From Bacilli bacterium (GTDB lineage Bacteria > Bacillota_I > Bacilli_A > RF39 > UBA660): 64,000 bases of DNA. The notes beneath the pieces are model-generated. The model saw only the letters and a list, made by a program, of their open reading frames with translations, was not told the origin of the DNA and ran no database searches. The stretch is from the NCBI GenBank assembly GCA_017941235.1, contig JAGAWU010000020.1, positions 62,001-126,000 on the forward strand, given 5' to 3'. Numbering within the stretch: position 1 is the stretch's first letter; every line of letters starts with the position of its first letter. This document shows, piece after piece, positions 22,114-43,929 of this stretch. Made by a program: the position numbers and the translations under genes.

Positions 22114-23488
22114 AAGGAATAATTAATTCTTGACCTATACTTAACAGATTCGAAGTTAACCCGTTTTTATTCTTAAGTTCATCCACTGTAACATTAAATT
22201 TTCTCGCAATACTCCATAGTGAATCACCATTCTGAACTATATATACATCATTAGAAGTACCAGCGGTTGTAGGTATTTTTAGTATATCTCCTATTTTTAA
22301 GTTAAATGAAGTTAACCCATTGAAATCAACAATATCATCCACAGATAAATTATATTCTTTAGCTATTTTCCACAAACTGTCACCTTTTTGAACAGTATAC
22401 TCTTCATATTGATCAAAATTATTACCATCATCTACTCTATTAGGTATTTTTAATACTTGACCAACTAATATTATATTTGAAGTTAACCCATTTAAACTCT
22501 TAATATCATCTATATTTGTATTAAAAAGAGTAGCTATTCTAGATAATGAATCACCAGGTTGAACTATATATTCCTGATAACCATCAACTTCTGGTACCAT
22601 ATCATCACCATTTTCTTCTAATATAGGTATAACTAACTGTTGGCCAACCTGTAAAACATCACCAATTAAATTATTCAAGGACTTAATCTCTTTAACAGTA
22701 GTATTATAAAGGCTAGCAATTTTAGATAAAGAATCACCCCTTTGAACAGTATAAGTAATAGTATTAGATGGAATAATGTCATCCTGAAGTGGTACTAAAT
22801 ATAACTTTTGCCCCACAGATAAACCATCACCAGTTAAATTATTAATAGATTTTAAATCAGCTACCGATATATTATAACGTCTTGCAATGGAGTATAAAGT
22901 ATCACCTTTTTGAACAGTATAAACTTGATCATTAACGACTGGAGTACTAGAAGGTGGAGAATAAGGTACATTTGAATAATCAGCTATTGCTTTTACAACA
23001 CCTTCTACATAACTATTTAAATTTTTCCTAAGTTTATTAGCATCATTAGCATTATCTATAAATCCATATTCAACAAGAAGAGATTGAAGTGGATTAGTAT
23101 CACGAATAATATAGTAATAATCTTGACTTGGATTTTCAGGTAATCTTCTTTGATAGATTTTTCTAATCTTTTGACCAGCAGCTCCTATATTATCAATAGC
23201 CATTTGTGCAAGTGTTGGACTATTTCTAAGTGCATAAACTATTTCCGCTCCTTCGCCACCACCCGCATTTATATGATTTGAAATTAATATTACATCACTA
23301 TTTCTACCAAAAGAATTAAGCGCTGTACCAATTCTTTCTTCTCTAGTTAAAGTTCTATCAGTATCCCTAGTAATTACAGTCGGAATACCAAGATCAGTAA
23401 GTCTTTGATACATATACTTAGCTGCTTGTAATGTTAAATCTTTTTCAACTAAACCACTACCACTAGCTCCACCATCGACTCCACCATG
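22112..23488 (-). pseudogene. N-acetylmuramoyl-L-alanine amidase with LysM repeats, 3' part (split by element B)
   Basis: The frame begins at the element B core as HGGVDGGASGSGLVEKDLTLQAAKYMYQRL and continues through an Amidase_3 domain (zinc ligands Glu in LVEKDL and His in SNHINAGGGEG; catalytic-region Glu in SLLVEYGFIDN) and five C-terminal LysM modules. The first ATG is only at 23413, so any product would lack the first zinc-ligand His and be inactive. The missing MNDRRTIGVIVDAG is at 33135-33176. Joined, the gene encodes about 472 residues. The enzyme would cleave the peptide from MurNAc; no signal peptide is seen, as in spore-type amidases. Confidence 0.9.
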
Positions 23489-23511
23489 TGCAGGAATAGG
23501 AAAAATCCAAA
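23484..23511. repeat. Left attachment site of element B
   Basis: Core CCATG (23484-23488, plus strand) followed by spacer and arm GAAAAATCCAAA (23500-23511), an exact inverted copy of TTTGGATTTTTC at 33110-33121. Confidence 0.82.
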
Positions 23512-23526
23512 TTTATTATTTCTTAC

Positions 23527-25125
23527 TTAAAAATCAAAGTTCCATTCTATTTCAATATCTCTTGTGTTTGTTTCTTTATCAAGTTCTCCTATATAAACCT
23601 TATCAATAAATTCATCAAGTATTACTTTGTTTAATTCTTTGATATGCTTATACTTTTTTAAAATGTCATCTGCTTGTTTCTTTTCTTCTTTAAATACTTC
23701 TAAATCACTAATCTCACTATCAATAGTTTCAATTCGTTTAGTCATATTTTCAATCTCTCTTAAATAATCTGCTGACATCATACTAAACATATCTTCAGTA
23801 ATAACACCTTTGACTTTATCTTCATAAAGATTTCTATAATAACTTTTGTTATCATCAATCTTTTTCATAAGGTTGTTTTTTTCTTTGTTTAGAATATTAA
23901 TTATTTCTTTGTTATCAGTATTTTGTTGATTACTTGTTTCGTAGAGTTCTTTTAAATTATTCTTATCACAGTAATTGTCTAATAAATCGTTAATAGCATT
24001 TAATAATATTTCTTCTAGTTTATCCATTCTAATTGCTTTGTTGTTAGTACATATATGAAATTTTTTATTTCCCTTACATTGCATATATGCTCTTTTTCCT
24101 GACTTTTCGCCTTTAACATTGTAAACATTTCTCATAAATGCCTTACCACAACAAGAGCAATATACTTTTCTTGTGAAATAATTTATTTGTCCTGTTTTTG
24201 TAACTTTGTAATGTGTTCCTAATATTGATTGCACTTTATTCCAAGTTTCCATATCTATAATTGCCTCATGTGCATTTTCTATTCTACACCAATCTTTTTC
24301 AGGTACTTTCATAGGTTTATGATTTTTATAACTTACATAAGTTGATTTACCCTGTACCAAATTACCAATATAAACTTCGTTTCTTAACATTTGTGCTATC
24401 GTATCAGGATTCCATCTAACAGTTTTTAAATCACAATTAGAACATACAAACTTGCTACCTTTTTGTTTCTTATAAACTGACCTAGGTGGAATATTATTAT
24501 TGTTTAGATACTCACATATTCTATGATAACCATATCCATCTGCATACATTTCAAATATCTTCTTAACTATTTCAGCAGCAACAGGATCAATAACTAATTT
24601 ATGCCCATCTTCACTTCTATCATATCCATAAGAAGCAAAGCTACCCATAAATAAACCATCTTCTCTTTTATTCTTTAAAGACTTTCTAATATTTTGCGAT
24701 AAATCATCTAAATACCACTCATTAATTAATCCATTTATTTGTCTTGATTTTTTATTTGCCTCAATACTTGTATCAGCATTATCTACTATACTTACAAATC
24801 TAACTCCCCATTCAATGAATTTATTATGCAAGTATTCTTCAATAACACTCATATCTCTTGAAAATCTTGATTGAGATTTACAAAGGACTAAATTAATCTT
24901 TCCACTTTCACAATCTCTTATTAGTCTTTCAAAATCAGGTCTATAAGTTCCTGCTCCTGAAAAGTCATCATCAGAATATATATCTACAACATTCCAACCA
25001 TTTTGATTAGCATATTTTAAACACATACTTCTTTGATTTATTATACTATCACTATCATCAGTTTTATTTAACTTATCTCTATCTTCATCAGATAATCTAC
25101 AATATACACCTACCTTTTCTATCAT
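23527..25125 (-). CDS. Large serine recombinase of element B
   Basis: 532 residues from the ATG at 25125, which has GGAGG at 7-base spacing (an ATG two codons earlier abuts the RBS). The resolvase domain has YCRLSDED (nucleophile Ser) and SQSRFSRD; a recombinase domain, a zinc ribbon (CSCCGKAF...CKGNKKFHIC) and a coiled coil follow. TndX/TnpX-like. It shares the general architecture but little local identity with recombinase A, consistent with a different core (CCATG against CCT). It ends 39 bases before the core. Confidence 0.95.
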   Translation of the reverse strand: MIEKVGVYCRLSDEDRDKLNKTDDSDSIINQRSMCLKYANQNGWNVVDIYSDDDFSGAGTYRPDFERLIRDCESGKINLVLCKSQSRFSRDMSVIEEYLHNKFIEWGVRFVSIVDNADTSIEANKKSRQINGLINEWYLDDLSQNIRKSLKNKREDGLFMGSFASYGYDRSEDGHKLVIDPVAAEIVKKIFEMYADGYGYHRICEYLNNNNIPPRSVYKKQKGSKFVCSNCDLKTVRWNPDTIAQMLRNEVYIGNLVQGKSTYVSYKNHKPMKVPEKDWCRIENAHEAIIDMETWNKVQSILGTHYKVTKTGQINYFTRKVYCSCCGKAFMRNVYNVKGEKSGKRAYMQCKGNKKFHICTNNKAIRMDKLEEILLNAINDLLDNYCDKNNLKELYETSNQQNTDNKEIINILNKEKNNLMKKIDDNKSYYRNLYEDKVKGVITEDMFSMMSADYLREIENMTKRIETIDSEISDLEVFKEEKKQADDILKKYKHIKELNKVILDEFIDKVYIGELDKETNTRDIEIEWNFDF

Positions 25126-25195
25126 AGCCATTCCTCCAATACTTTGGAATGACTACAAATACATATTAGAAATACAAGTATATTATATAACATAT

Positions 25196-25339
25196 TTAAG
25201 AATTATTTAACCTTAATTCTTGACTTTCTAATTTTAATATAATATTTAGTAATTTCTTATTAAATAACTCCTTTAATTCTTCATTAGTTTTATTGTCATT
25301 ATCTTTAAGCTTATATTTTACATTATATACTACCTCCAT
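25196..25339 (-). CDS. Small protein preceding recombinase B
   Basis: 47 residues (MEVVYNVKYKLKDNDNKTNEELKELF...), read in the gap upstream of the recombinase. A GGGGGAG site stands 7 bases before the ATG. The length, position and YxVKYKLKD motif resemble the small ORF before recombinase A (YKVNLKFKD). Function unknown. Confidence 0.6.
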   Translation of the reverse strand: MEVVYNVKYKLKDNDNKTNEELKELFNKKLLNIILKLESQELRLNNS

Positions 25340-25409
25340 TTTCTATCTCCCCCAATCTTTTTAATTATAAATTAATTCCTCCTGCCATAAAGCATCAACT
25401 CCTTTCATT

Positions 25410-25904
25410 TTATAATTCATTTATTTTGTTTATGGCTTCATCAATTTCTTTTTGCATTTCTTCTTGTTCTTCTTTTGTTGCTGGTGTACTTACACAAAGT
25501 TCTGGATGTTTCATCCATTCAGGTACAATTCCTTCTCGTTTAAACTTATTAAATTTATTATTATATTCTTTTTTATATTTATTATTTATATTATATCCGC
25601 AATCTATTGCACTATCATTACTACAATCTGTTGCAACATCATCTGCATTTTTTGTCGGTATCTTTTCTTTATTAAGATATATTCTTCGTTTTCCATCTAT
25701 CTTTTTTATAAAGATATAATTTAATTCTTTTAATTTAGATAATGAATAACTAATAGTTCTATCTGAAGTATTAATATAATCTGCTAAATATTTATTATTT
25801 GCATAGCAATAATCATTTTTCAAGGCAAGTGATATAATAAGACTTAAAAGATCATTTTCAGTTCTTGTTAAGTTCTTATCATTAAATAATATTCTAGGAG
25901 TCAT
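25410..25904 (-). CDS. Winged-helix replication-type protein
   Basis: 164 residues. Residues 1-75 form a winged helix (LTRTENDLLSLIISLALKNDYCYANNKYLADYINTSDRTISYSLSKLKELNYI) like the N-terminal HTH domain of phage/plasmid replication initiators (PF13730-type). The rest is a low-complexity linker and a short acidic C-terminal helix containing VPEWMKHPEL, as in replisome-organiser tails. In an integrative element it may start replication of the excised circle or act as a regulator. Confidence 0.65.
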   Translation of the reverse strand: MTPRILFNDKNLTRTENDLLSLIISLALKNDYCYANNKYLADYINTSDRTISYSLSKLKELNYIFIKKIDGKRRIYLNKEKIPTKNADDVATDCSNDSAIDCGYNINNKYKKEYNNKFNKFKREGIVPEWMKHPELCVSTPATKEEQEEMQKEIDEAINKINEL

Positions 25905-26120
25905 GATAAATTCACAATCTAATCTAATAATATTTAATCTCCCTTAAAATAATAAATAAGGACTTTTCTACTTCCAAAAAAGACAATAATATCCCTAAGA
26001 TGATGTTTTATATCTATCCCTAAAGATATTATTTTATTTATTCTATATATCTTATAGAAAAGGTACTAACATAAATCTCCGAGCATTTACTGTACCTGAT
26101 TTACTAGCGATTATTCTATT
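25905..26120. other. Non-coding AT-rich gap between the two wHTH genes
   Basis: No ORF or canonical RNA is evident. AATATC at about 25990 and GATATT at about 26027 can pair, and CCCTAA occurs twice between them, so a structured leader or replication origin next to the putative initiator is possible but not demonstrated. Confidence 0.35.
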
Positions 26121-26387
26121 CTAGCAAATTGTGTATTCGTATAATCCTGTATCATATTCTCTAAACTTAATATATTTGTATTCTTCAAGTTGTTGTAAGT
26201 TTTTTCTAAATGCGATATTTTTTATACTTTTAACTTCTTTTTGTACTCTACCAATATTGATATTTGAAATAGTTTTATCAAATCCCTCTGAATATAGATA
26301 AGCATATATTTCTTTTGCTTCAGGTTTAATATTTCTATCTTTCCATATCTCATGGTTTGTAATATCTAGTTGTTGTTTTCTTTTCAT
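26121..26387 (-). CDS. Small winged-helix DNA-binding protein
   Basis: 88 residues (MKRKQQLDITNHEIWKDRNIKPEAKEIYAYLYSEGFDKTISNINIGRVQKEVKSIKNIAFRK...). It looks like the N-terminal wHTH of replication regulators without further domains. It starts behind AAGGAGG and is driven by the minus-strand promoter in the operator region shared with the divergent Xre gene, so it is probably the first gene of the replication/integration module. Confidence 0.62.
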   Translation of the reverse strand: MKRKQQLDITNHEIWKDRNIKPEAKEIYAYLYSEGFDKTISNINIGRVQKEVKSIKNIAFRKNLQQLEEYKYIKFREYDTGLYEYTIC

Positions 26388-26407
26388 TTATTTCCTCCTT
26401 TCTTTTT

Positions 26408-26543
26408 AATTAGTTAACATTTAAAATTAAAATGTTAATTTAAGCTAACATCTATAATATACAACATCATATATGAACTTGTCAACACTTTTATTAACAT
26501 TTTTTAATATTTTGTTGACTTATGTTAACATTTATAGTATTAT
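26408..26543. promoter_or_regulatory. Divergent promoter-operator region of element B
   Basis: The gap between the wHTH and Xre genes holds at least four TTAACATTT/AATGTTAA motifs, including the inverted pair TTAACATTTAA...TTAAAATGTTAA (26413-26438) and a copy overlapping the Xre promoter (26525-26534). The plus-strand promoter is TTGACT (26515-26520), 17 bases, TATTAT (26538-26543); the minus-strand promoter is TTGACA (26480-26485), 18 bases, TATATT (26456-26461). This is a phage-like genetic-switch layout, probably bound by the adjacent Xre protein. Confidence 0.65.
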
Positions 26544-26563
26544 TATGTTGGGTGGTGAAGTTT

Positions 26564-27079
26564 ATGCCTAAAAAGAATATTGGCGAAGAAATCGCAAAAG
26601 CAAGAGAAAATAAAGGCTTATCACAAAGACAATTAGCAAATGCAGTTGGTATTAGTAATGCTGCATTATCTAAAATTGAATCAGGAGAAACTGAAATACC
26701 TAATCCTAAAATACTTAAAAAAATAAGTAAACATATTGATCTAAATTATAATGATATGATGAGTATGGTAGGTTTAGGAACTCAAATAACTACACTTAAT
26801 CCTTTTATTAGAAATTATTATGAACATTTAAAAGGAGATAAGTTAGAAGATGCTTGGGTTATGGCTAAATCAAGTATAGATAACAACAAATTGATGATTA
26901 AAAATTTAACTGATAATATTAGTAATGAAAATCTATCAGAAGAAGAAAAAGAAACAATTATTGAAACTATACAAGATTTGGAATATCAAAATACAACTAA
27001 TGAACTTATAATTGAAATTTTAGATGAAAATAGATTAAAGGAGGCGAAGAAGAATGCAAAAAATAAAAATGTACTTTAA
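26564..27079 (+). CDS. Xre-family repressor of element B
   Basis: 171 residues from the ATG at 26564 (MPKKNIGEEIAKARE), preferred over the upstream in-frame start because the HTH begins there and the promoter -10 lies at 26538-26543. The HTH_3 domain (7-62: ARENKGLSQRQLANAVGISNAALSKIESGE) is followed by an acidic helical C-terminus. The position between divergent promoters with repeated operators suggests the element's main repressor. It overlaps the next gene by 26 bases. Confidence 0.88.
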   Translation: MPKKNIGEEIAKARENKGLSQRQLANAVGISNAALSKIESGETEIPNPKILKKISKHIDLNYNDMMSMVGLGTQITTLNPFIRNYYEHLKGDKLEDAWVMAKSSIDNNKLMIKNLTDNISNENLSEEEKETIIETIQDLEYQNTTNELIIEILDENRLKEAKKNAKNKNVL

Positions 27080-27491
27080 TAAAGTTCAAATAATTGGCGA
27101 GATATTATCAACTATAATCGTTATCTTAATTCCAATTATTAATGATAATAAATTTGTTAGTTTTGGATGGTTTTTTATAGGATTAACTGCTTTCGGTGAT
27201 GCAATGTTTACAAAAAAGTGGGGTATAATTGGTCGAACTTGGAATAAGAAACAAGATAGCAATTATAAAACACAATTATCAAGAGAATATAGTGATAAAT
27301 CATTTATTGCAGTTGGAATATTAGGAATTATATTATGTCCTATTGCATTATTTGAAACTATATTTTCTCAAAATTACATAGCAATGGTAATTGCTTATGT
27401 AATATCAACTATTATATTAATTGTTCTATTCATTCTTACTGATAAAGAAAATAAAAAAGTAGAACAATTAATACCAAAGATAAGAAAATAA
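27054..27491 (+). CDS. Four-helix membrane protein coupled to the Xre gene
   Basis: 145 residues with four hydrophobic helices (about 10-28, 33-48, 83-102, 108-128). AGGAGGCGAAGAAG precedes the ATG inside the end of the Xre gene, so translation is coupled. I do not recognise a family. It may sense a signal for the repressor or protect against related elements; both ideas are inference. Confidence 0.72.
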   Translation: MQKIKMYFNKVQIIGEILSTIIVILIPIINDNKFVSFGWFFIGLTAFGDAMFTKKWGIIGRTWNKKQDSNYKTQLSREYSDKSFIAVGILGIILCPIALFETIFSQNYIAMVIAYVISTIILIVLFILTDKENKKVEQLIPKIRK

Positions 27492-27521
27492 CCTTTTCGT
27501 TAAGATTAGGTTATTTTTTTA
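27487..27521 (+). terminator. Terminator after the Xre-membrane pair
   Basis: AATAACC (27487-27493) pairs with GGTTATT (27509-27515), followed by a T-run; it overlaps the stop codon. Confidence 0.68.
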
Positions 27522-27877
27522 TCATTAAAAAAACGTGGCACGTTTTGTCAGCTATGCTGATGAAAGTGGCGATAGTTTTTTTCTTTTTTATGAAAACGAT
27601 AGTTGAAATAAAAAAGGCAACGTCCACTTACATTAGTTTGTGGTTGTTGCTCAAAAGGGGTTTCAAAAGGGATCTCCCTTTGCACACTATTCCTAGTTGG
27701 CTTGTCCAACTTGGTAGTGTGTTACTATCTTGTCTAAAAGATAGTCTATTGCGAAAATCCATTAGTTACGAAGTTTCTTTTGGATTTTCGCCGTCTTACT
27801 ATTTTAAAATTAGATCATAATATCTTAATATTACGATACATTGACTTTTCACTTTTTAATAAACATTACGAAAAGAA
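27492..27877. other. Structured non-coding mobilisation region (oriT and hairpins)
   Basis: This 386-base gap holds no convincing gene; an open frame at 27545-27820 has a biased, non-protein-like composition. It contains a series of inverted repeats: AAAACGTG/CACGTTTT (about 27530-27546), AAAGGGAGATCCC-type palindrome (27666-27681), the nested oriT hairpin, ACTATCTT/AAAGATAGT (27724-27746) and GCGAAAATCC/GGATTTTCGC (27751-27792). Such clustering is typical of transfer or replication origins. Confidence 0.6.
27682..27724 (+). other. Origin of transfer (oriT), pMV158/MobM type
   Basis: CACACTA (27683-27689) pairs with TAGTGTG (27715-27721), enclosing an inner hairpin AGTTGG (27695-27700)/CCAACT (27706-27711). 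The sequence TAGTGTG-TTA at 27715-27724 equals the nick site of pMV158 as cut by the MobV relaxase MobM, as I recall it, which would place the nick after 27721. The element encodes a MobV relaxase about 4 kb away, so site and enzyme fit each other. Confidence 0.78.
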
Positions 27878-28603
27878 TCACATAAATAATTCATAAAAAT
27901 AATATTTATTTAATTCTTCATCGAAAATAATATAAAGTTCATCTCTCTCATCATCTCTGTTATTTATTTTCTTCCATTGATATTTGTGTTCAAAATTAAT
28001 TTGTTTATCTTTTGGTATATTTAATTTTTCATTTAACTCTTGTATTTTTTCTTCAAGTTCATCATTTTTATTAATATTAAAATCAATCATAAAATTTGAG
28101 CCATCATATATTGAATATCTTTCACCATCTCCACCAAATGCTGGTTCTGTTTCAGTGTGATAATATTCTTTAAAATCATTAGGTATTATGATATTCCAAT
28201 TATATTTAAATGTTTTTGATACAGACCAATAATTTTTCATAAAAATATACATTCCAAATAAACCTGATACTAATAAAAATCCTATTACACATAAAACCAT
28301 AATTACTACTTTCAAATTTTTCTTTTTTACATTTTCACTTTTAACAATATTCATAATATTTTCTTCAGATTTTTGAATCATATTTTCTTTAGATAAATGT
28401 TCACCTGCAAAAAATTCATTTAATGAAATTTCTAAAATATCACATATTTCTTTATACAAAGATACATCAGGTAATCCATTGCCAGTTTCCCATTTACTCA
28501 CAGCTTTATATGTAAGTCCCAATTTATCTGCTAGTTCCTGTTGCGTCATATTTTTATCTTTACGACATTTTGCGATAAACTTACCAATCTTCTCTTGATT
28601 CAT
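27878..28603 (-). CDS. Xre-family regulator with a membrane anchor
   Basis: 241 residues. An HTH_3 domain (5-60: KIGKFIAKCRKDKNMTQQELADKLGLTYKAVSKWETG) is followed by a linker, one membrane helix (about 98-120) and an extracytoplasmic C-terminal domain of about 120 residues with no recognised fold. AAGGAGAAA stands before the ATG. The layout suggests a membrane-bound one-component regulator that senses something outside the cell or in the envelope. It heads no operon directly, but small membrane and secreted unknowns lie upstream on the same strand. Confidence 0.82.
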   Translation of the reverse strand: MNQEKIGKFIAKCRKDKNMTQQELADKLGLTYKAVSKWETGNGLPDVSLYKEICDILEISLNEFFAGEHLSKENMIQKSEENIMNIVKSENVKKKNLKVVIMVLCVIGFLLVSGLFGMYIFMKNYWSVSKTFKYNWNIIIPNDFKEYYHTETEPAFGGDGERYSIYDGSNFMIDFNINKNDELEEKIQELNEKLNIPKDKQINFEHKYQWKKINNRDDERDELYIIFDEELNKYYFYELFM

Positions 28604-28684
28604 AGTCTTTCTCCTTTCAGTAATAATTATAATTATTAAAAATTTTATTTTATACCCACAGATAGTAGAGTTTTAAATACATTA

Positions 28685-28837
28685 TTATTTTACCATAAAA
28701 ATAGGAATAATTTTCATTACTCCTACAGAAAAAACTATTACAATTATAGCAATAATTATAGAAAATGTTGTTATCGCATACATTTTACTTTTGGATTTCA
28801 ACATTTCTTCATTAATATCATCTTCATTAAATTTCAT
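28685..28837 (-). CDS. Small single-helix membrane protein
   Basis: 50 residues: a charged N-terminus (MKFNEDDINEEMLKSKSKMYA) and a hydrophobic segment (ITTFSIIIAIIVIVFSVGV), ending in VK-TAA. The ribosome site is weak (GGATGAA). It lies between the Xre-TM gene and two other membrane/secreted unknowns, same strand. Function unknown. Confidence 0.5.
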   Translation of the reverse strand: MKFNEDDINEEMLKSKSKMYAITTFSIIIAIIVIVFSVGVMKIIPIFMVK

Positions 28838-28879
28838 ATATTCATCCAGCTTTCAAACAAGATTTTTTGATACTACTAT

Positions 28880-29257
28880 TTATCGTATTCTTAAACCTAA
28901 TTTTCCATTTTTTTTCATATAATTTGGAAGCTCGTAATTAGAATTATCCAAAGAAAATTTATATTTTTTATTATTACAATAAATAGTATAATCTTCCCCA
29001 TCTGGAAATTTAAAAACCACTTCTAATCTTTTGACATTTGTAATACAATCATCCATATTTAAATTATTAGATATTCCGAACATATTATTTTCTTGTTGTT
29101 TTAGTAAATTAATTATTTCAGTTCTATTTTTATCATTTATTTTTAAATATGTATAATCTTGAATTTTTCCCATAAATAACAAGGAAATAAAAACTATAAA
29201 TAACAATAATATAAATGCTAATATTATTATAATTGTATAAATAATCTTTTTCATCAT
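28880..29257 (-). CDS. Small lipoprotein-like or membrane-anchored unknown
   Basis: 125 residues from the ATG at 29257 (AAGGTG upstream), an N-terminal hydrophobic helix (about 4-28) and an extracytoplasmic ~95-residue domain. No Cys lipobox, no recognised family. The start overlaps the end of the next upstream gene by a few bases if earlier starts are used, indicating coupling. Confidence 0.6.
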   Translation of the reverse strand: MMKKIIYTIIIILAFILLLFIVFISLLFMGKIQDYTYLKINDKNRTEIINLLKQQENNMFGISNNLNMDDCITNVKRLEVVFKFPDGEDYTIYCNNKKYKFSLDNSNYELPNYMKKNGKLGLRIR

Positions 29258-29264
29258 AAACACC

Positions 29265-29840
29265 TTAATAATACACACACTTTTTATCTTTAAGCGAACA
29301 TTTTACTCTAGGCTCATCTTTAATCGTATTATCTACTTTAAATGGAGATGATAAGTACACATATTCATTATCCACATTGTCTATACCCATATGTAATTGA
29401 CTAATATTAGGTGTGTTTTTAAAATTGAAATTCATTGTTTCTTTTTCAATGTTTAAATTATTTATTAAATATTTATCTATAATTCCACCTTTACCAATGC
29501 AATGTATATAAAGTTCATTATCTTTTATATATAAATTAGTTCCATCATCATCAGTATCACATTTTTTTATACTTTCCAAATTATAATAATCATTTTTATC
29601 CTTTAATAATAAATTAAGGTGACTCCAAGAACTTGAATTATCATAATATCTTGATATTACATAATTTTGGTTATCATATTCAAAACTTTTTATATTTTTC
29701 TCGTTTTCAATAAATGTGTATTTTTCTAAATTAGATAATGAATTCTTATAATCTATATGTTTAACAAACTTATATGTTGCAAAAATAAATAATGGAATTA
29801 AAATTATTACTATCAAAACTAAAACAATCTTTTTTTTCAT
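29265..29840 (-). CDS. Membrane-anchored extracytoplasmic protein of unknown function
   Basis: 191 residues from the ATG at 29840 (KKKIVLVLIVIILIPLFIFATY helix). The rest is a soluble domain with repeated short beta-like motifs (YDNQNYVISRYYD, LNLLLKDKNDYY, LYIKDNELYIHCIGKGG, NEYVYLSSPFKV), suggesting a small beta-propeller or beta-sheet. Two C-terminal Cys (CSLKDKKC) may bridge. It forms a pair with the 125-residue protein downstream. No family recognised. Confidence 0.62.
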   Translation of the reverse strand: MKKKIVLVLIVIILIPLFIFATYKFVKHIDYKNSLSNLEKYTFIENEKNIKSFEYDNQNYVISRYYDNSSSWSHLNLLLKDKNDYYNLESIKKCDTDDDGTNLYIKDNELYIHCIGKGGIIDKYLINNLNIEKETMNFNFKNTPNISQLHMGIDNVDNEYVYLSSPFKVDNTIKDEPRVKCSLKDKKCVYY

Positions 29841-30009
29841 AACATATCTCACTTTCAAATTACTATTTATCTGTTTCTTTCATTTATAATTATATCATAA
29901 AACCTAGTTATTTTTTCCATTAACTTAACAATCGCAATATTACTATATTATGATTAGCATAAAGTATAACAAATTTGGAAAGTTTAGGGGTACTGCTAAT
30001 TTTACTACT

Positions 30010-30543
30010 TTATTTACTGCTTAATTCCTTATTCTTTTTGTATTCTTCATCACATTTTTGCCAAATAAGACATCTTGATATAGCAATATATCTTAATGCA
30101 ATCCACATAAACGCATCATAATATTGTTTTTCTTTCAATTCAGTAGAGAAACAATATTTTTTTATGATAGAAATATCAACAGGTATTTCTAATTTGTTTT
30201 CCATTACCTTAAATAATAGTTGATTTGCTATGTAATCTCCTTCTTCAATAACTGCATCAAATTCTTCTTTTTTACTTGCATAATAATCAGTTATCTCATC
30301 TACATCTCTTGAAATACTTTTAAATTGCTCCATAGTAATTGATTTTAACTTTTCTAATTGCTTATTAATAATTGAACTAACAACTTTATCTTTATCATCA
30401 TTAGATAGTCTATCAATTATTTCTATTAAATCATTTAGATCTAAATCTAATACTTCTTGAACTTTTGTTAAATCTCTTTCCATAGTTCTTGATATTGAAG
30501 AAGATAATTCTTCAACATTTACTGCATTAATATTTTTTTTCAT
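30010..30543 (-). CDS. Helical protein of unknown function
   Basis: 177 residues, soluble, strongly charged and helical throughout (MERDLTKVQEVLDLDLNDLIEIIDRLSNDDKDKVVSSI...). No family recognised. It is divergent from the double-HTH gene across about 125 bases, which may share a regulator. Confidence 0.6.
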   Translation of the reverse strand: MKKNINAVNVEELSSSISRTMERDLTKVQEVLDLDLNDLIEIIDRLSNDDKDKVVSSIINKQLEKLKSITMEQFKSISRDVDEITDYYASKKEEFDAVIEEGDYIANQLLFKVMENKLEIPVDISIIKKYCFSTELKEKQYYDAFMWIALRYIAISRCLIWQKCDEEYKKNKELSSK

Positions 30544-30667
30544 AAATTATAGCTCCTTTTCTTAAAACCTAAACTTACCAATTAACATTATATCACTTTT
30601 TCAACGAATAATCTTCGGTTTTGTAGTTAAAACTATTTTTAATGGGACAATTATATCGGTGATTGTA

Positions 30668-31117
30668 ATGTTTGAAAATAATTTAAGATGGTGTCGTGAA
30701 GAATTGGAAATGACACAAGCAGAATTGGGGTATATATTTGGTGTTAGCGATTCAGCAGTTAGAGCTTGGGAGACTGCACACGATTCAATACCATTTAGTA
30801 AACTAATTAAATTTTGTAATATGTATGATTTTTCATTAGATTTTGTATGTGGACTAACAAGAAAGAATATAAAATATGGTAAGTTTGAAACTGATAAAGA
30901 AAAGATAGGTAAAAAGTTAAAACAATTAAGAACTAGTTTAAAATTATCACAACAAGCATTATCTGATGAGTGTAAAATATCTCAAACAACATATAGTGGT
31001 TATGAAACAGGTCATTATTTAATTAATACTGCTAATTTATATTACATTTGTAAAACCTATAATGTTTCTATGGATTGGATTGTTGGAAGAACTAAAAATA
31101 TTAAAATAGGTAAATAA
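30668..31117 (+). CDS. Protein with two Xre-type helix-turn-helix domains
   Basis: 149 residues from the ATG at 30668, which has GGTGAT upstream (a GTG at 30659 overlaps that site). Two tandem HTH_3 domains are visible: residues ~5-60 (LRWCREELEMTQAELGYIFGVSDSAVRAWETAHDSIP) and ~80-140 (LKQLRTSLKLSQQALSDECKISQTTYSGYETGHYL). A single-chain pseudo-dimer regulator is likely. Probable target is its own divergent region. Confidence 0.85.
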   Translation: MFENNLRWCREELEMTQAELGYIFGVSDSAVRAWETAHDSIPFSKLIKFCNMYDFSLDFVCGLTRKNIKYGKFETDKEKIGKKLKQLRTSLKLSQQALSDECKISQTTYSGYETGHYLINTANLYYICKTYNVSMDWIVGRTKNIKIGK

Positions 31118-31118
31118 A

Positions 31119-31158
31119 AAAAGCGAGAGTATGCTAATTAAAACATATTCTCGCTTTT
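31119..31158. terminator. Bidirectional terminator
   Basis: AAAAGCGAGAGTATG (31119-31133) pairs with CATATTCTCGCTTTT (31144-31158), with one G-U pair, between the convergent double-HTH gene and the 130-residue gene. Confidence 0.78.
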
Positions 31159-31549
31159 ATAATATATTTAATGAATAACAATAATCATATACATTTAGTT
31201 CTTTATTAATTTTAGTATTGATTTCTTCATTTTGAAAGTTGTATTGAAAAATATTAAATAACATTTCTACTGAAAATTTTTGCTTTTCTAATAATGATAA
31301 TTCCATATACTTTGCTGATATAAATAATAAGTTTTTATATTTAGCAAAATTAGTTATCACTTTTTTAGATTTAGGATCTAGTTCTACTAACACTTTTTTT
31401 AATACTTTAATAAAATTTTCATCATAACTACTTGAAAAATATTGTTCTTCAAGTATGTGTATTGCTAATCTAATCTTATCAATACCTTTTAAATCATCTA
31501 CCATAAGTGTTAAATTAATAACTTTTTCTGTATTACTATCTAATAGCAT
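31157..31549 (-). CDS. Helical protein of unknown function next to the relaxase
   Basis: 130 residues, all-helical by appearance (LTLMVDDLKGIDKIRLAIHILEEQYFSSSYDENFIKVLKKVLVELD...). GGTGGAAGATTT precedes the ATG. It follows the relaxase gene across a 166-base gap containing a strong inverted repeat. Possibly a mobilisation accessory protein by position; no family recognised. Confidence 0.6.
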   Translation of the reverse strand: MLLDSNTEKVINLTLMVDDLKGIDKIRLAIHILEEQYFSSSYDENFIKVLKKVLVELDPKSKKVITNFAKYKNLLFISAKYMELSLLEKQKFSVEMLFNIFQYNFQNEEINTKINKELNVYDYCYSLNIL

Positions 31550-31572
31550 AAATCTTCCACCTTTCTAATTTG

Positions 31573-31662
31573 CCGTTTAAGGCACTTTATTTTTAAGAAC
31601 AGATAAGAGATTAAACTTTACCTTAAAACCTCAGTAATGGCGATTAAATTAGGTTTAATCTC
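31573..31662. repeat. Inverted repeat between relaxase and the 130-residue gene
   Basis: GAGATTAAAC (31607-31616) and GTTTAATCTC (31653-31662) form perfect 10-base arms with partial extension (CAGA/CTG outward). A second small hairpin GCC-GTTTAA-GGC is at 31573-31584. There is no U-run, so it is not a plain terminator; it may be a leader structure or a protein-binding site. Confidence 0.5.
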
Positions 31663-31715
31663 GTTTTCTGTTTAAATATTTATCACTCTAACAATTAAAA
31701 AAATCAAGAGTATTT

Positions 31716-33011
31716 TTATCTACTTAAATCAAAATCATCTGATTTATCATAGTCTTTCTCATATTCATCAGCACTCTTAACTCTTGTTTTTAAATAATCA
31801 GGTGCATCTACATAATCAAATAATTCATCTTGTTTAGTTGTACCTCTTGATATTTTAACTACATCTCCCATATCAAAATCTTCATTATCATAGTAATCTT
31901 TTATTTCAATAGAAGTTTCTTCTTTTGCATATTCATTTCCAAATTGTAATATCTTTCTAAAGAACTTTTTAATTGCCTCTAATATTGCATCAATATAATT
32001 TCTTAATTTGTTATTTTCAGCTGATAAGTTTTGATTTCTAGTAGTTAATGATTTAACTTCTCTTTTAAGGTTATTATTTTCTTTTTCTAATGTTTGATGA
32101 CTTTTAGTAAAAGTATCAACTTCATTAAATAATTGTTCTATTTTAGGTTGAAACTCTATTGCTTTTTTAGTTTCTTTTATAACATTATTCATTGAATCAA
32201 ATGTTTCTCTTTTAACTTTTACATATTCTTTATCAAAAATAGTATTTTTATTAGATTTCATTTTTTCATCTAAATCACTTATTGCTTTATCTAAACCTTT
32301 ATTGATAGTATCAACTTTATTTTCATAATATCTAGTTGTTTTCTTTAATTCTTTTGTTTTTAAATGTTCTGCATTACTACCTTTAATACCTCTTTCTAAA
32401 TCAAAACCTTTTTCAGTTAGTCTTTCGTGATATTTATCTTGTAATTCTGATAAGTGTATTTTATCTTTAATATATTGTTTTTTTGATATAGTCCATCTTT
32501 CAGTATTAGTTCTTTTATCTAATTTCTTAACAAGTGGAACTACTACACAATGGATATGTGGTGATTTTTCGTCCATATGAATTGTTGCATGAAGTATTTG
32601 TTCTTTCTTATATCCTAAATCATTATAAACAAACTCCATACAAGTATCAGCCCATCTTAAAATATCTTCTTTACTCATATCTTCAAAAAACTTTGGTGAA
32701 GCAGTAAATAATAATTCATCTGCTACACAATTTCTTGAATGATTAACCATTTGTGTATAAGTTCTTTGTCTTTCTTTTCTTTCAGTTTTCATCTTTTCAT
32801 TGTGTTGTTTTTCATATTCCTTTGTCATTTCGTGAAATCTTTTTACATATTTATAATTTAATGGAACTAATTGAATATTTTTATAACTATCTTCTACTCT
32901 TATATCTGGATTAGAGTTATAGGCTTTCTTTTCTCTTTGATTATGAGATCCAATTTGTGCTAAATCGTTTGTAGTCATAATAGGTTCACTTCTAAATATT
33001 GCATAATTCAT
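31716..33011 (-). CDS. MobV-family relaxase (Pre/Mob)
   Basis: 431 residues. The N-terminus (MNYAIFRSEPIMTTNDLAQIGSHNQREK) and the histidine motif HMDEKSPHIHCVVVPL (about residues 144-159) are those of Pre/Mob MobV relaxases, which nick oriT and lead the strand into a recipient cell. The middle and C-terminal parts are a long coiled coil (about 240-340) and an acidic tail. It starts behind a GGAGATTGAT site and is the outermost gene at the right end of element B. Its likely target is the TAGTGTGTTA site at 27715-27724. Confidence 0.93.
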   Translation of the reverse strand: MNYAIFRSEPIMTTNDLAQIGSHNQREKKAYNSNPDIRVEDSYKNIQLVPLNYKYVKRFHEMTKEYEKQHNEKMKTERKERQRTYTQMVNHSRNCVADELLFTASPKFFEDMSKEDILRWADTCMEFVYNDLGYKKEQILHATIHMDEKSPHIHCVVVPLVKKLDKRTNTERWTISKKQYIKDKIHLSELQDKYHERLTEKGFDLERGIKGSNAEHLKTKELKKTTRYYENKVDTINKGLDKAISDLDEKMKSNKNTIFDKEYVKVKRETFDSMNNVIKETKKAIEFQPKIEQLFNEVDTFTKSHQTLEKENNNLKREVKSLTTRNQNLSAENNKLRNYIDAILEAIKKFFRKILQFGNEYAKEETSIEIKDYYDNEDFDMGDVVKISRGTTKQDELFDYVDAPDYLKTRVKSADEYEKDYDKSDDFDLSR

Positions 33012-33109
33012 TATATCAATCTCCTTTCTTTTTTACACAACAAAAAAAGATACTATTCAAAGTACCTTTAATCCTTGTATTTACTTGCATTTGTAGTCAT
33101 TCATTATAT

Positions 33110-33134
33110 TTTGGATTTTTCAGTATCGCCCATG
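33110..33134. repeat. Right attachment site of element B
   Basis: Arm TTTGGATTTTTC (33110-33121) and core CCATG (33130-33134, plus strand), after which host amidase sequence begins. In the rebuilt circular joint the two 12-base arms flank 24 bases whose centre falls on the CA of CATGG. Confidence 0.82.
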
Positions 33135-39071: not shown

Positions 39072-39329
39072 CTAAAAAAGAATTACCCTAGAACCATTCT
39101 TCAATTCACTATCTTTGACTAATAATTGAACATCTAATACTTTACCAGTATCTCTACTGTAAAAATTAGTATCCTCTCTAATTTTATAATTAGAATTTTG
39201 TTCAACAATAGATTTTTCAAATAATTGTTTTATAGTACCAATTCTTTTATTAATAGGTACAAACACATCATATTCTTCTTCAAATAGAGGTAAATATATT
39301 TGTATTAAAATCTTATTAGAATTCATCAT
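39072..39329 (-). CDS. YukD/EsaB-like ubiquitin-fold protein
   Basis: 85 residues (KILIQIYLPLFEEEYDVFVPINKRIGTIKQLFEKSIVEQN...YSRDTGKVLDVQLLVKDSELKNGSRVILF). The alternation of strands, the central helix and the ending 'L-K-N-G-S-R-V-I-L-F' match YukD/EsaB, the ubiquitin-like component of type VIIb secretion. It overlaps the end of essC by 14 bases. The position beside essC supports the assignment. Confidence 0.8.
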   Translation of the reverse strand: MMNSNKILIQIYLPLFEEEYDVFVPINKRIGTIKQLFEKSIVEQNSNYKIREDTNFYSRDTGKVLDVQLLVKDSELKNGSRVILF

Positions 39330-42300
39330 CTATACCTCCAATATACTTAATAATATATGGTTTACCCTTTATAACAATAACAGCAAAGGCATTTCCTAAT
39401 TCTCCCCTTAGTTCTCGAGGATTTAATGCAAGTTTTAATGCATATTGATCAAGAACACCAGACCCAAGCCAAACACCATTTGAATTGTCAATTGCAGTCT
39501 TAAACCAATTTTCATATAATTGTTGTTTAATTTTATCAGCATTATCTATAATAACTAAATGATAAATTCCAGTATCTTTAATCATTGAAAGTGCAGATGT
39601 AAACTCCTTTTGCTTATCCAAACTCATTTTAGAAAGAATATTAGTAATTCCCGAAAGAAAAATTGTACATTTTCTCTCACTGGATAAAACTGATTTATCA
39701 TAATTAGAATCTCTATATTTTACATATACATTAGACATACTCTCTAAGAGAGGATTAATATTCTCTTCAAAGTTTTTATTAATTAAAAATGCCTTATCTA
39801 TACTTTCCTCTTCAAACATTTCTATACCATCAATAACAACAACATCACTAGCATGCTTATAAATATCATAAACTTGATTTATAAATGATTTATATTCAGT
39901 AACATCATTACCACTAATTATAGTAGAATAATTCTTTTCACAATTAAGTGTAGCAATATCTAAACTTTCTTTAAATATACCAAAAGGAATACTATCTAAC
40001 CTTCCAAGATAAGTTGATAAATCATTGATTGAAACTATATTAGGTAGAATAGGAACCTTTTTAGCACTATTTTGAGGGAAAGCAGTAGCAAGTTTTTGAG
40101 ATAACACTCTAATAAACTCAGTTAATTTCTCTTCCTTATAAGGATAAGCAGTTTGGAATTCAAATATACCGTCCCTATCAATTAATCCCCTACCAAATAT
40201 TTTAGAAGGATACTTTTTATCAACATTTCCTAAAACAGAAGAATAATCACTAACATCATTAAACTGTAAAACAACATTCTGCTTGAAATTCTGTTTCATT
40301 TTATATCTCATTGAATTAACACTATTAGAAGTCACAATAAATACTATACCATATTTATTTCCTTCTCTTGTTAACACATTGAACTCTTCTTCTTTATTTT
40401 CATAACTCTCATAATAAGAATCATAGTTATTAATTATAACTACTATTAAAGGTAAAGTCTTTCCACTATGTTTACAATAAAAATCATAATCACCATTATA
40501 GTCAACAAATAGTCTTTTTCTCTCAGCAAGCTCATTATTTAATAGTTTAAATAAATTATTAACTTTTTCATCCTCAGAAGAGAAAATAACATCACCAACA
40601 TGTGGTGCGGCTGAAAATGCTCTCAATGTCTCAGCACCAAAATCCATTATATAAAAATTAACTTCTTCAGGTGTATGTTCAGTAATAGTAGAATATACAA
40701 TAGTAGAAAGCATTAATTCTTTACCACTTCCAGTTGAACCATAAACAATAGCATTTCCATCTGAACTTAAAGGAAGTGTCAATAACTCCTGTCTCTGATT
40801 ATTAGGATCATCATATTCTCCAATTATAGGATTTATAACAAACCTCTGAGAATTATATCCATATTTTTGCTTTAATTTATTAACATAAATAAATTCAGAA
40901 ATTTTATCAAGCCATAACCTATTAGCATAAGTATGAGTTTGATTACATATAGAAATAATATAATTAATTATATTTGTTATTTCTTCACCTTCAGGTTTAA
41001 CAGATAAATCTGCTTTTACAGTTTCTATACTTTTAACAATATTTCCAACATTATTAAGAATATCAATTTTTTCATCAACTTTCTTCTTGCGTTTATCAGT
41101 AGGATAATACTTAGCACCTGTCCATGCAGATTGACCTAAAGCAAATAGCTCATTATATCCAACTTGAAGATAAAATCTTCCAGTTTCCTTAATTGCAGCT
41201 GCATCTGGACACTTTATCATATCAACACTATCAGATTTATCTTGAACTTTTAAACAAACTCTAAATTTCGAATTTGACCAAATTTGATCATCTACAACAC
41301 CAGATGGTTTTTGAGTAGCAAGAATCAAATGAACACCTAAACTACGACCAATTCTAGCAGTAGAAATTAGTTGAGACATAAATTCAGGTTGTTGACTTTT
41401 TAATTCTGCAAACTCATCTGAAATGATAAATAAATGAGAAACTGGTTCTTTGACTTTACCCTCTCTATAAAGTCTTTGATACTTATATATATCTATAGTA
41501 CTTTCATTTAAAGAATCTCTAGCCTCATTAAAGACTTTTTGTCTTCGTCTTAATTCACTTTGAATCGATGCAAGAGCTCTATTCATTTCAACAGTATCTA
41601 AGTTTGTAATGCTACCTGCTAAATGAGGAAGCCTCATACCAGTCTCCTTATTTTGAAATGCACCAGCAAGTCCTCCACCTTTATAATCTATTAGTATAAA
41701 ACTTACTTCATTAGGACTATAATTAACAGCCATAGATAAAATATAAGTAATTATAAATTCAGATTTACCTGAACCTGTCATACCAGCAATTAAACCATGA
41801 GGTCCATAAAATTTTTCATGTAAATCAAGTTTAAATAATTCACGATTTTTATCAAGACCTATAGGTGCTTGCAAAGATTGTGTTGGATCATTATTCTTCC
41901 ACCTATTAATTAAATTTAATTGTTCTACACGACCAACATCATACATTTCAAGAAAACTAACCATACTAGGTAGATTACTAGTACCACGAGAAACCTCAAT
42001 TGGTATATTGAATAATTTTTTACAGCACTCATACATATCAATATTAGGATCAAAATCTGCTACAAACTCTTTTTGTTTATTTGAAACAAGCTCATTTTCA
42101 AACAACCCCGAAAGTTTATCACCAATACTAATAAAGCTATGACATTCATTAGGTAAATTAGTAATTCTATTATTAATAATAACAAGACTATATCCTACAT
42201 TTATATCTTGTTCACAAACATCTTTAATAATTTCAAGTTCACGAACTGATTTAAAATCATCTGTAATAATAAGATAATAAGGTTTATAACTTAAATAATT

Positions 42301-43929
42301 ACTAGTATTAGATTCCCTAGTTCCCTCTTTATATCTTCTAGCCTGGAATTCTTGCTCCAAGTTCAAAGATAACTCTTTTGCTTCATCAGAAGTACTAGCA
42401 AAGTATCTACGTGTCTTAGCATTATTCCAAACATGAGGCAAAACTTTTAAGAATTCCCATCTAGATTCATTCTTATCATTTGTAAATAAAACTATTTTTA
42501 AATCTTCATAACTATGAAAAGCTATAGTTTGTAATAATAAGCCGTCAATAAAACTATTTTTATTTTGCCCATCACCGATTATAGCTGTAATATTATGTTT
42601 TAAAAATGAAAATACAATTGGAACATTTTCAAGTTGTTTTGATTCTTGTCCTAAAGAAAAAACAAGTTCCTGAAGTTGATCATCTTCAACACTAAATCTT
42701 TTTTCAGGATAGTTTACTGTACCACCAAAATCAGCATTACCCATACCTACTCTTAAGCTTAAAAAATCATCTTGATCAATTTCTCTTTCCCAAAGATTTC
42801 TTTTTCTTCCTAAAATAATTTTAGAACATTCCTCTAAAGTTATATTATTTTCAAGAAGAGCCTGTTTTTGCTTTTCCATTTCACTATTAATCAAAGATTT
42901 TTTTTCTTCAATATATTGAGTATACTTTTCGACTCTAAGTTTTTCTTTTTTCTTTTGTTGTTTTTTCTGATAATTTCGACTTAAAGTAGGCCAAAGTACC
43001 ATACTTAAAAGCATTGCAAGACAAGTAATAAGTGTAGGAAGCGATGATTTTAAATCTGAACTTCCTTTCATTATTCCATAAACAGAATTATAACCAGTCA
43101 TTAAAGAAGTCATACCCATACAAAGCATAGGACCTATAACATACATTATTGGAGTATTATCAGGTTCTATCTTTGAAGGAGGTGCATCAATATTAATTTG
43201 TACTGGTTCAACCCCAGCTTTAAATCTAGGTGATCTAAAAAAATAATCTTCTTGCTTAAAAAAGTCAACATTCTCTTCTAACACATTATCATCATTTATA
43301 ACAGGCTGTATTTGAAGTTGTACAGGCATAAAACTTTGATTATTAATTCTTACTAAATCACCTATTTTATTTACAATTATCATATCACCTAGAATAATTA
43401 TTCTAAGCCCCATAATAAATATAATATCACCATGATTAAGCTTCTTCTCTTTTACTAATTCACTATTAACATATGTACCATATTTACTATCCATATCCTT
43501 AATAGACCACATATTATTAGAAAAAGTAAGCACAGTTTGAGTTTTAGATACAAGTGGATAATTATAAGTTATATGACATTGAGGGCTATTACCAATTAAT
43601 ATTTGAAAATTATCAGGGACTTTTAATATTTCTACATTCTCATCATAATCAGGAGAACAATATAATAACATATAATCATTTTCAGAACTTATTCTTAAAA
43701 AGTATAATGAATATTCTTTTAATATAATTGAATCTAACTCACTATTATTAACAATTATCTTTGCTTCAAAATTACTATATAACCTCCAATAACCATTATC
43801 TTCTTCTATGTTAATTAGATTTCTAGAATTACCAGAATTATCTAAATCAGTAATCCAATAATTACCTGAAACTATTGTAGGCAAATGAAAATTATATATT
43901 TTTGTTCTCTTTATTAACCTTACAATCAT
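39316..43929 (-). CDS. essC: EssC-like type VII secretion ATPase
   Basis: 1537 residues. An N-terminal FHA-type domain pair (second at about 105-185: LIGNSPQCHITY...DSKYGTYVNSELV) is followed by two membrane helices (about 262-285 and 296-315) and FtsK/SpoIIIE-type ATPase modules. Module 1 has Walker A GMTGSGKS (about 714) and Walker B-like LFIISDEFAEL; module 2 has GSTGSGKE (about 1062); module 3 (beyond ~1320) has no intact Walker A. This is the EssC motor of T7SSb, which drives export of WXG100/LXG proteins. EssA, EssB and EsaA are not in the window. Confidence 0.93.
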   Translation of the reverse strand: MIVRLIKRTKIYNFHLPTIVSGNYWITDLDNSGNSRNLINIEEDNGYWRLYSNFEAKIIVNNSELDSIILKEYSLYFLRISSENDYMLLYCSPDYDENVEILKVPDNFQILIGNSPQCHITYNYPLVSKTQTVLTFSNNMWSIKDMDSKYGTYVNSELVKEKKLNHGDIIFIMGLRIIILGDMIIVNKIGDLVRINNQSFMPVQLQIQPVINDDNVLEENVDFFKQEDYFFRSPRFKAGVEPVQINIDAPPSKIEPDNTPIMYVIGPMLCMGMTSLMTGYNSVYGIMKGSSDLKSSLPTLITCLAMLLSMVLWPTLSRNYQKKQQKKKEKLRVEKYTQYIEEKKSLINSEMEKQKQALLENNITLEECSKIILGRKRNLWEREIDQDDFLSLRVGMGNADFGGTVNYPEKRFSVEDDQLQELVFSLGQESKQLENVPIVFSFLKHNITAIIGDGQNKNSFIDGLLLQTIAFHSYEDLKIVLFTNDKNESRWEFLKVLPHVWNNAKTRRYFASTSDEAKELSLNLEQEFQARRYKEGTRESNTSNYLSYKPYYLIITDDFKSVRELEIIKDVCEQDINVGYSLVIINNRITNLPNECHSFISIGDKLSGLFENELVSNKQKEFVADFDPNIDMYECCKKLFNIPIEVSRGTSNLPSMVSFLEMYDVGRVEQLNLINRWKNNDPTQSLQAPIGLDKNRELFKLDLHEKFYGPHGLIAGMTGSGKSEFIITYILSMAVNYSPNEVSFILIDYKGGGLAGAFQNKETGMRLPHLAGSITNLDTVEMNRALASIQSELRRRQKVFNEARDSLNESTIDIYKYQRLYREGKVKEPVSHLFIISDEFAELKSQQPEFMSQLISTARIGRSLGVHLILATQKPSGVVDDQIWSNSKFRVCLKVQDKSDSVDMIKCPDAAAIKETGRFYLQVGYNELFALGQSAWTGAKYYPTDKRKKKVDEKIDILNNVGNIVKSIETVKADLSVKPEGEEITNIINYIISICNQTHTYANRLWLDKISEFIYVNKLKQKYGYNSQRFVINPIIGEYDDPNNQRQELLTLPLSSDGNAIVYGSTGSGKELMLSTIVYSTITEHTPEEVNFYIMDFGAETLRAFSAAPHVGDVIFSSEDEKVNNLFKLLNNELAERKRLFVDYNGDYDFYCKHSGKTLPLIVVIINNYDSYYESYENKEEEFNVLTREGNKYGIVFIVTSNSVNSMRYKMKQNFKQNVVLQFNDVSDYSSVLGNVDKKYPSKIFGRGLIDRDGIFEFQTAYPYKEEKLTEFIRVLSQKLATAFPQNSAKKVPILPNIVSINDLSTYLGRLDSIPFGIFKESLDIATLNCEKNYSTIISGNDVTEYKSFINQVYDIYKHASDVVVIDGIEMFEEESIDKAFLINKNFEENINPLLESMSNVYVKYRDSNYDKSVLSSERKCTIFLSGITNILSKMSLDKQKEFTSALSMIKDTGIYHLVIIDNADKIKQQLYENWFKTAIDNSNGVWLGSGVLDQYALKLALNPRELRGELGNAFAVIVIKGKPYIIKYIGGIDDEF

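Follow-up and report, generated by a model that had tools for sequence, protein, structure and literature searches.

The hairpin at positions 27683-27721 of the window, the whole 64,000-nucleotide stretch of DNA analyzed here, is very probably the oriT (transfer start) of a 9.65-kb mobilizable element. It is highly likely that the region 27666-27745 serves as the oriT of a canonical integrative mobilizable element (IME), and that it would be nicked by the element's own MobV relaxase and exported with the aid of a helper. An earlier note on this DNA had described the site as pMV158-type, a label that holds for the hairpin logic and the nick core (GTGTG/TT lies at the hairpin foot) and fails for the layout: instead of immediately preceding the relaxase gene on the coding strand, the site is 3′ of that gene and antisense to it, with 3995 bp between the relaxase stop and the nick. 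Because of this layout, the element is classed from its sequence not as a pMV158-type module but as a canonical MobV IME whose oriT arrangement is a variant one.

The element and its insertion site

The element interrupts a gene for an N-acetylmuramoyl-L-alanine amidase at its DAGHGG codons; the start of this gene lies to the right of 33134, and the rest of it to the left of 23484. When the two flanks are joined at their common CCATG, MNDRRTIGVIVDAGHGGVDGGASGSG is restored, and the amidase gene is uninterrupted in a related genome, G013, which together give the element a size of about 9.65 kb. The predicted attP junction consists of GCACATGG joined to GCGATACTG. In G194, a genome of the same genus as the host, the same amidase codons are occupied by an orthologous element with identical gene order (integrase 61% identical, MobV 60%, oriT 78%). 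The gene plan places a large serine recombinase at one end and the MobV relaxase at the other, along with HTH regulators:

about 23484-33134 (no strand): whole integrative mobilizable element, bounded on each side by the common core CCATG (23484-23488 and 33130-33134), from flank joining and relatives
23527-25131 (minus): large serine recombinase (integrase) with Resolvase, Recombinase and Zn_ribbon_recom domains
25410-25904 (minus): HTH_36 protein, kept beside the integrase (domain match, relatives)
26121-26387 (minus): conserved 88-aa backbone protein (relatives)
26564-27079 (plus): XRE-type regulator, kept beside oriT (domain match, relatives)
27054-27491 (plus): 145-aa hydrophobic protein, adjoining oriT in some relatives (ORF list, relatives)
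27878-30543 (minus): cargo slot separating oriT from the relaxase side, with four ORFs, the first encoding an XRE-type protein (ORFs, domains, relatives)
30659-31117 (plus): double-HTH regulator, common to many relatives (domain match, relatives)
31157-31549 (minus): 130-aa protein, often adjoining the relaxase gene (relatives)
31716-33011 (minus): MobV relaxase with HNxR (His23) and HxDExxPHxH motifs (PF01076, NCBIfam MobV, alignment to MobM structures)

No T4SS genes are seen among the element's ORFs. With its own integrase, relaxase and oriT, and with defined ends, it has the full make-up of a canonical IME, in keeping with the earlier proposal of an integrative element that carries a relaxase. 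The relaxase named in that proposal is likewise confirmed at 31716-33011 by matches above cutoff to PF01076 (Mob_Pre; 3.5e-30, 105.7 bits, cutoff 25.5) and to the NCBIfam MobV model NF041497 (110 bits, cutoff 100). The protein contains the sequences SHNQR and HMDEKSPHIH, aligned to MobM structures (4lvi and others), and thus displays two hallmarks of the MOBV family, a Mob_Pre domain above the curated cutoff and a catalytic histidine with a metal motif; its relationship to MobM is only distant. In genomes of the family (for example G173:C6, G087:C76 and G192:C21), decayed MobV copies interrupted by internal stops are numerous, which suggests that these elements may turn over rapidly.

Similar insertions can be seen elsewhere in the collection. 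Related integrases adjoin amidase fragments that start with the DAGHGG motif or close to it (L122, L145, L158, L173, L177 and L181), and at L255 an integrase of the same type is likewise found beside an amidase gene split at or near these codons, which suggests that integrases of this type may target the conserved active-site codons of the host amidase gene. The host genome, an incomplete assembly of 57 contigs, contains a second IME (L003, C53:28000-47000) on the contig of the window element, about 53 kb from it. This element has a different serine integrase, shares its backbone with the window element at 79% over 1.75 kb and its MobV at 65%, and carries, by reading, glycosyltransferase and GtrA-type membrane genes as cargo. 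Outside the element, at 39316-43929 of the window, there is a 1537-aa FHA/FtsK-like ORF with small neighbors that, by reading only, resembles EssC of type VII secretion.

The nick motif and its stem-loops

The nick motif TAGTGTGTTA (TAGTGTG/TTA) occurs in the window as a single exact copy, at 27715-27724 on the plus strand. When one mismatch is allowed, the 10-mer is found at chance level (8 copies in the window versus 7.6 expected), and the motif alone was rejected as evidence. The sequence is embedded in a hairpin in which CACACTA (27683-27689) pairs with TAGTGTG (27715-27721) at the foot and AGTTGG (27695-27700) pairs with CCAACT (27706-27711) in the inner stem. Folded as single-stranded DNA, 27683-27721 reaches −11.7 kcal/mol (z −4.31), and none of 200 shuffles is as good. 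A composite rule that combines the nick motif, a 5-nt foot stem, an inner stem and a following 7-bp stem-loop calls one site only in the window, after 27721 on the plus strand, and makes zero calls in two sets of random sequence from a first-order Markov model (1.92 Mb and 1.03 Mb, 2.95 Mb in all). The nick sequence with flanking inverted repeat that the earlier note had read at 27682-27724 is therefore borne out. MobM is reported to cut 5′-GTGTG/TT-3′ (PMC5090054; PMC5863519), which places the predicted cut after 27721, as had been anticipated. The region is arranged as follows:

27666-27681 (plus): oriT stem-loop 1 (AAAGGG/CCCTTT), base-paired in almost every relative, with changes that compensate each other
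27683-27721 (plus): stem-loop 2, the main hairpin of oriT, in which CACAC/GTGTG forms the foot and AGTTGG/CCAACT the inner stem, from the DNA fold and covariation
27715-27724 (plus): nick motif, with the predicted cut between 27721 and 27722, from the published MobM cut and the TTAC that follows the nick in relatives
27724-27745 (plus): oriT stem-loop 3 (ACTATCTT/AAGATAGT), beginning 2 nt past the nick, with a 7-bp stem in relatives
27751-27791 (plus): conserved fourth hairpin (GCGAAAATCC/GGATTTTCGC), seen in several relatives

The fourth hairpin has a conserved loop (ATTAGTTAC.AAGTTTCTTTT) and lies 33-36 nt past the nick in several related elements; its sequence is present as a single copy in the host genome within 3 mismatches.

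A search of 193 genomes of the host's family recovers the relaxase in 77 and oriT DNA in 48, and across the class (395 genomes) good relaxase matches are confined to this family. The earlier note had made its reading depend on the presence of the hairpin in close relatives, where it was looked for and is indeed found, covarying, in dozens of related elements. The comparison uses 61 of 62 oriT sequences, the sole omission being too short rather than divergent. TTAC follows the nick in all 61 distinct sequences, an invariance that is partly built in, as the regular expression used for collection required TTAC. The foot is CACAC/GTGTG in 50 sequences and CCCAC/GTGGG in 7, a compensatory change from A:T to C:G at the second pair from the nick, and at each of three inner-stem pairs 22 sequences have changed on both sides with pairing kept. 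Stem-loop 3, scored by a per-sequence pairing count, forms a perfect 7-bp stem in 57 of the 61 sequences with nine different arm sequences, compared with 12 perfect stems on average and 20 at most in a tail-swap control; alignment-based folding missed this stem-loop because its arms are too variable. Plasmid and phage DNA searched with the oriT gives no match, and the 36 matches to the hairpin pattern in viral contigs include none that pass the composite rule.

Arrangement of oriT, relaxase gene and cargo

The roughly 4-kb separation of site and enzyme, pointed out in the earlier note and agreeing with the distance measured here, is the rule within the clade. Eighty relatives with named contigs were surveyed on both strands, up to 10 kb on each side of the relaxase gene, with the nearest site taken. 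In all 48 with a called oriT, some of which are near-copies such that independent events number fewer than 48, the site follows the 3′ end of the relaxase gene and lies on the other strand, at a distance of 0.9-9.6 kb; most of the 32 relatives with no oriT call have less than 5 kb of contig 3′ of the relaxase. In sister clades, with relaxase identity down to 43%, the hairpin resides 28-52 bp past the relaxase stop, also antisense. A maximum-likelihood relaxase tree, with two Priestia plasmid relaxases as outgroup, groups the "far" layout as one clade (support 88/92) nested among "adjacent" ones; the second oriT caller used for the tree labels missed some sites of the layout survey, and those rows are unlabeled. 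Thus, the kilobase gap apparently arose once, via the opening of a cargo slot between the relaxase gene and an abutting oriT. The 4-kb gap in the window is thus this clade's cargo slot, and a gap of this kind is normal for the clade. A partial literature search found no report of a MobV oriT that is 3′ of and antisense to its relaxase gene.

Compact versions of the module also exist. In G013 (L226:6705-9991), an ORF that resembles a tyrosine integrase by reading directly precedes MobV, and oriT lies 28 bp past the MobV stop, antisense; judged by sequence, this is the same mobilization module with another class of integrase. Copies of oriT with no relaxase found nearby are observed at L218:9682-9769 (G082), L220, L221 and L223. 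The L218 copy, beside the 3′ end of secA, is probably either what is left of a compact IME or an element consisting of oriT alone.

Covariation of a palindrome cannot by itself separate an oriT from another DNA-protein site, and so it could be that the hairpins represent an operator, a segment of an RNA or a transcription terminator separating convergent genes, with an incidental nick motif. The site does reside between convergent genes (27054-27491 on the plus strand and 27878-28603 on the minus strand), and RNAs and terminators typically contain stem-loops stacked in this way. Yet Rfam yields nothing above the gathering score in the region and no match at any score that covers the hairpins, the stems vary while the TTAC after the nick does not, and one side and strand relative to MobV are maintained, with the site abutting MobV in sister clades; a function of this kind is very improbable. 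The site might instead be a decayed or passenger oriT, served by the relaxase of another element. Although the 4 kb between site and relaxase gene, the related relaxase of the second element in the same genome, which could act in trans, and the existence of relaxase-free copies such as L218 would all be compatible with this, the relaxase ORF is intact and retains its catalytic motifs, every stem is intact, kilobase distances are customary in the clade and no other matching hairpin is present in the element, so that this explanation, too, has little probability.

The slot in related elements accommodates a variety of cargo, including an IleRS-like class I tRNA synthetase, a helicase-endonuclease that matches defense models, an ABC transporter and a GH10 glycosidase. 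At L173:6422-9544 it holds the 1040-aa synthetase resembling IleRS, which, as a guess, is possibly an alternative, inhibitor-resistant copy. Across relatives, 123 slot ORFs are on the relaxase's strand versus 24 on the opposite strand (112 versus 14 kb). Conceivably, though this is rather unlikely, the fixed antisense placement of oriT is functional, with the slot acting as a leading region, the first part to enter the recipient and transcribed early, possibly from single-stranded DNA, and with the post-nick hairpins aiding second-strand synthesis or early expression. In that case the transferred strand would be the one that serves as template for the relaxase gene and for most slot ORFs. Simple co-transcription of the cargo with the relaxase gene would produce the strand bias equally well.

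Proposed transfer and comparison with known systems

For 27666-27745 as the element's own oriT, the observed features are the site, the constraint on its pairing, its linkage to the relaxase gene and the boundaries of the element, and a course of transfer can be proposed from them. The serine integrase would excise the element from the amidase gene, and the MobV relaxase would bind the hairpin on supercoiled circular DNA, cut between G27721 and T27722 and, by analogy with MobM (PMC5863519; PMC5090054), stay covalently joined to the 5′ end at T27722. The coupling protein and T4SS of a helper element would then export the plus strand, and the predicted order of entry into the recipient is cargo, relaxase gene, att site, integrase and regulators. 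Three regions of the host genome have coupling-protein matches above cutoff, with VirB4 ATPase-like and other relaxase-like ORFs, identified by eye, among their neighbors; helpers should therefore be available in principle, and helper mobilization is plausible. Its principle is supported by the mobilization by pAMbeta1 of a plasmid with the MobV module of IMESag-rpsI (PMC5090054; PMC5704250).

The analysis provides a recognizable oriT, backed by covariation, for a family of mobilizable elements that is widespread in uncultured gut Bacilli, together with a rule for finding it, namely to scan the 3′ side of the relaxase gene for an antisense site within about 10 kb; methods that expect a MobV oriT immediately before the relaxase gene would overlook this site. 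It also indicates where these elements gain cargo and makes the direction of transfer testable.

By its nick core, the oriT belongs with the MOBV origins. Like that of pMV158 and its relaxase MobM (MOBV1), it combines the GTGTG/TT core with an inner hairpin and a foot stem ending at the nick, and the element's relaxase has the HNxR and HxDExxPHxH motifs. In pMV158, oriT is upstream of mobM on the coding strand (PMC5863519), whereas here it is 3′, antisense and kilobases away, flanked by two further conserved stem-loops, and the relaxase is only distantly similar. IMESag-rpsI (MobSag) is likewise a chromosomal IME, of 9.5 kb, with a MobV relaxase, its own oriT and no T4SS (PMC5090054), but it is located 3′ to rpsI, and its oriT, with the nick GTGcG/TT, lies directly upstream of mobSag (PMC5090054), whereas the window element interrupts an amidase gene and carries a serine integrase. 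The pairing of a MobV relaxase with a serine integrase in an IME recalls Tn4451 and its relatives (PMC5704250), which differ in host group and target; this is a likeness of description rather than of membership. Finally, the Priestia plasmids pBEH8 and pELP1.24a_6, whose relaxases rank with the best matches from the plasmid collection (35-38% identity), have similar CACAC...GTGTG hairpins, but these lie 72-79 bp before mobV; as in pMV158, they are upstream and on the same strand.
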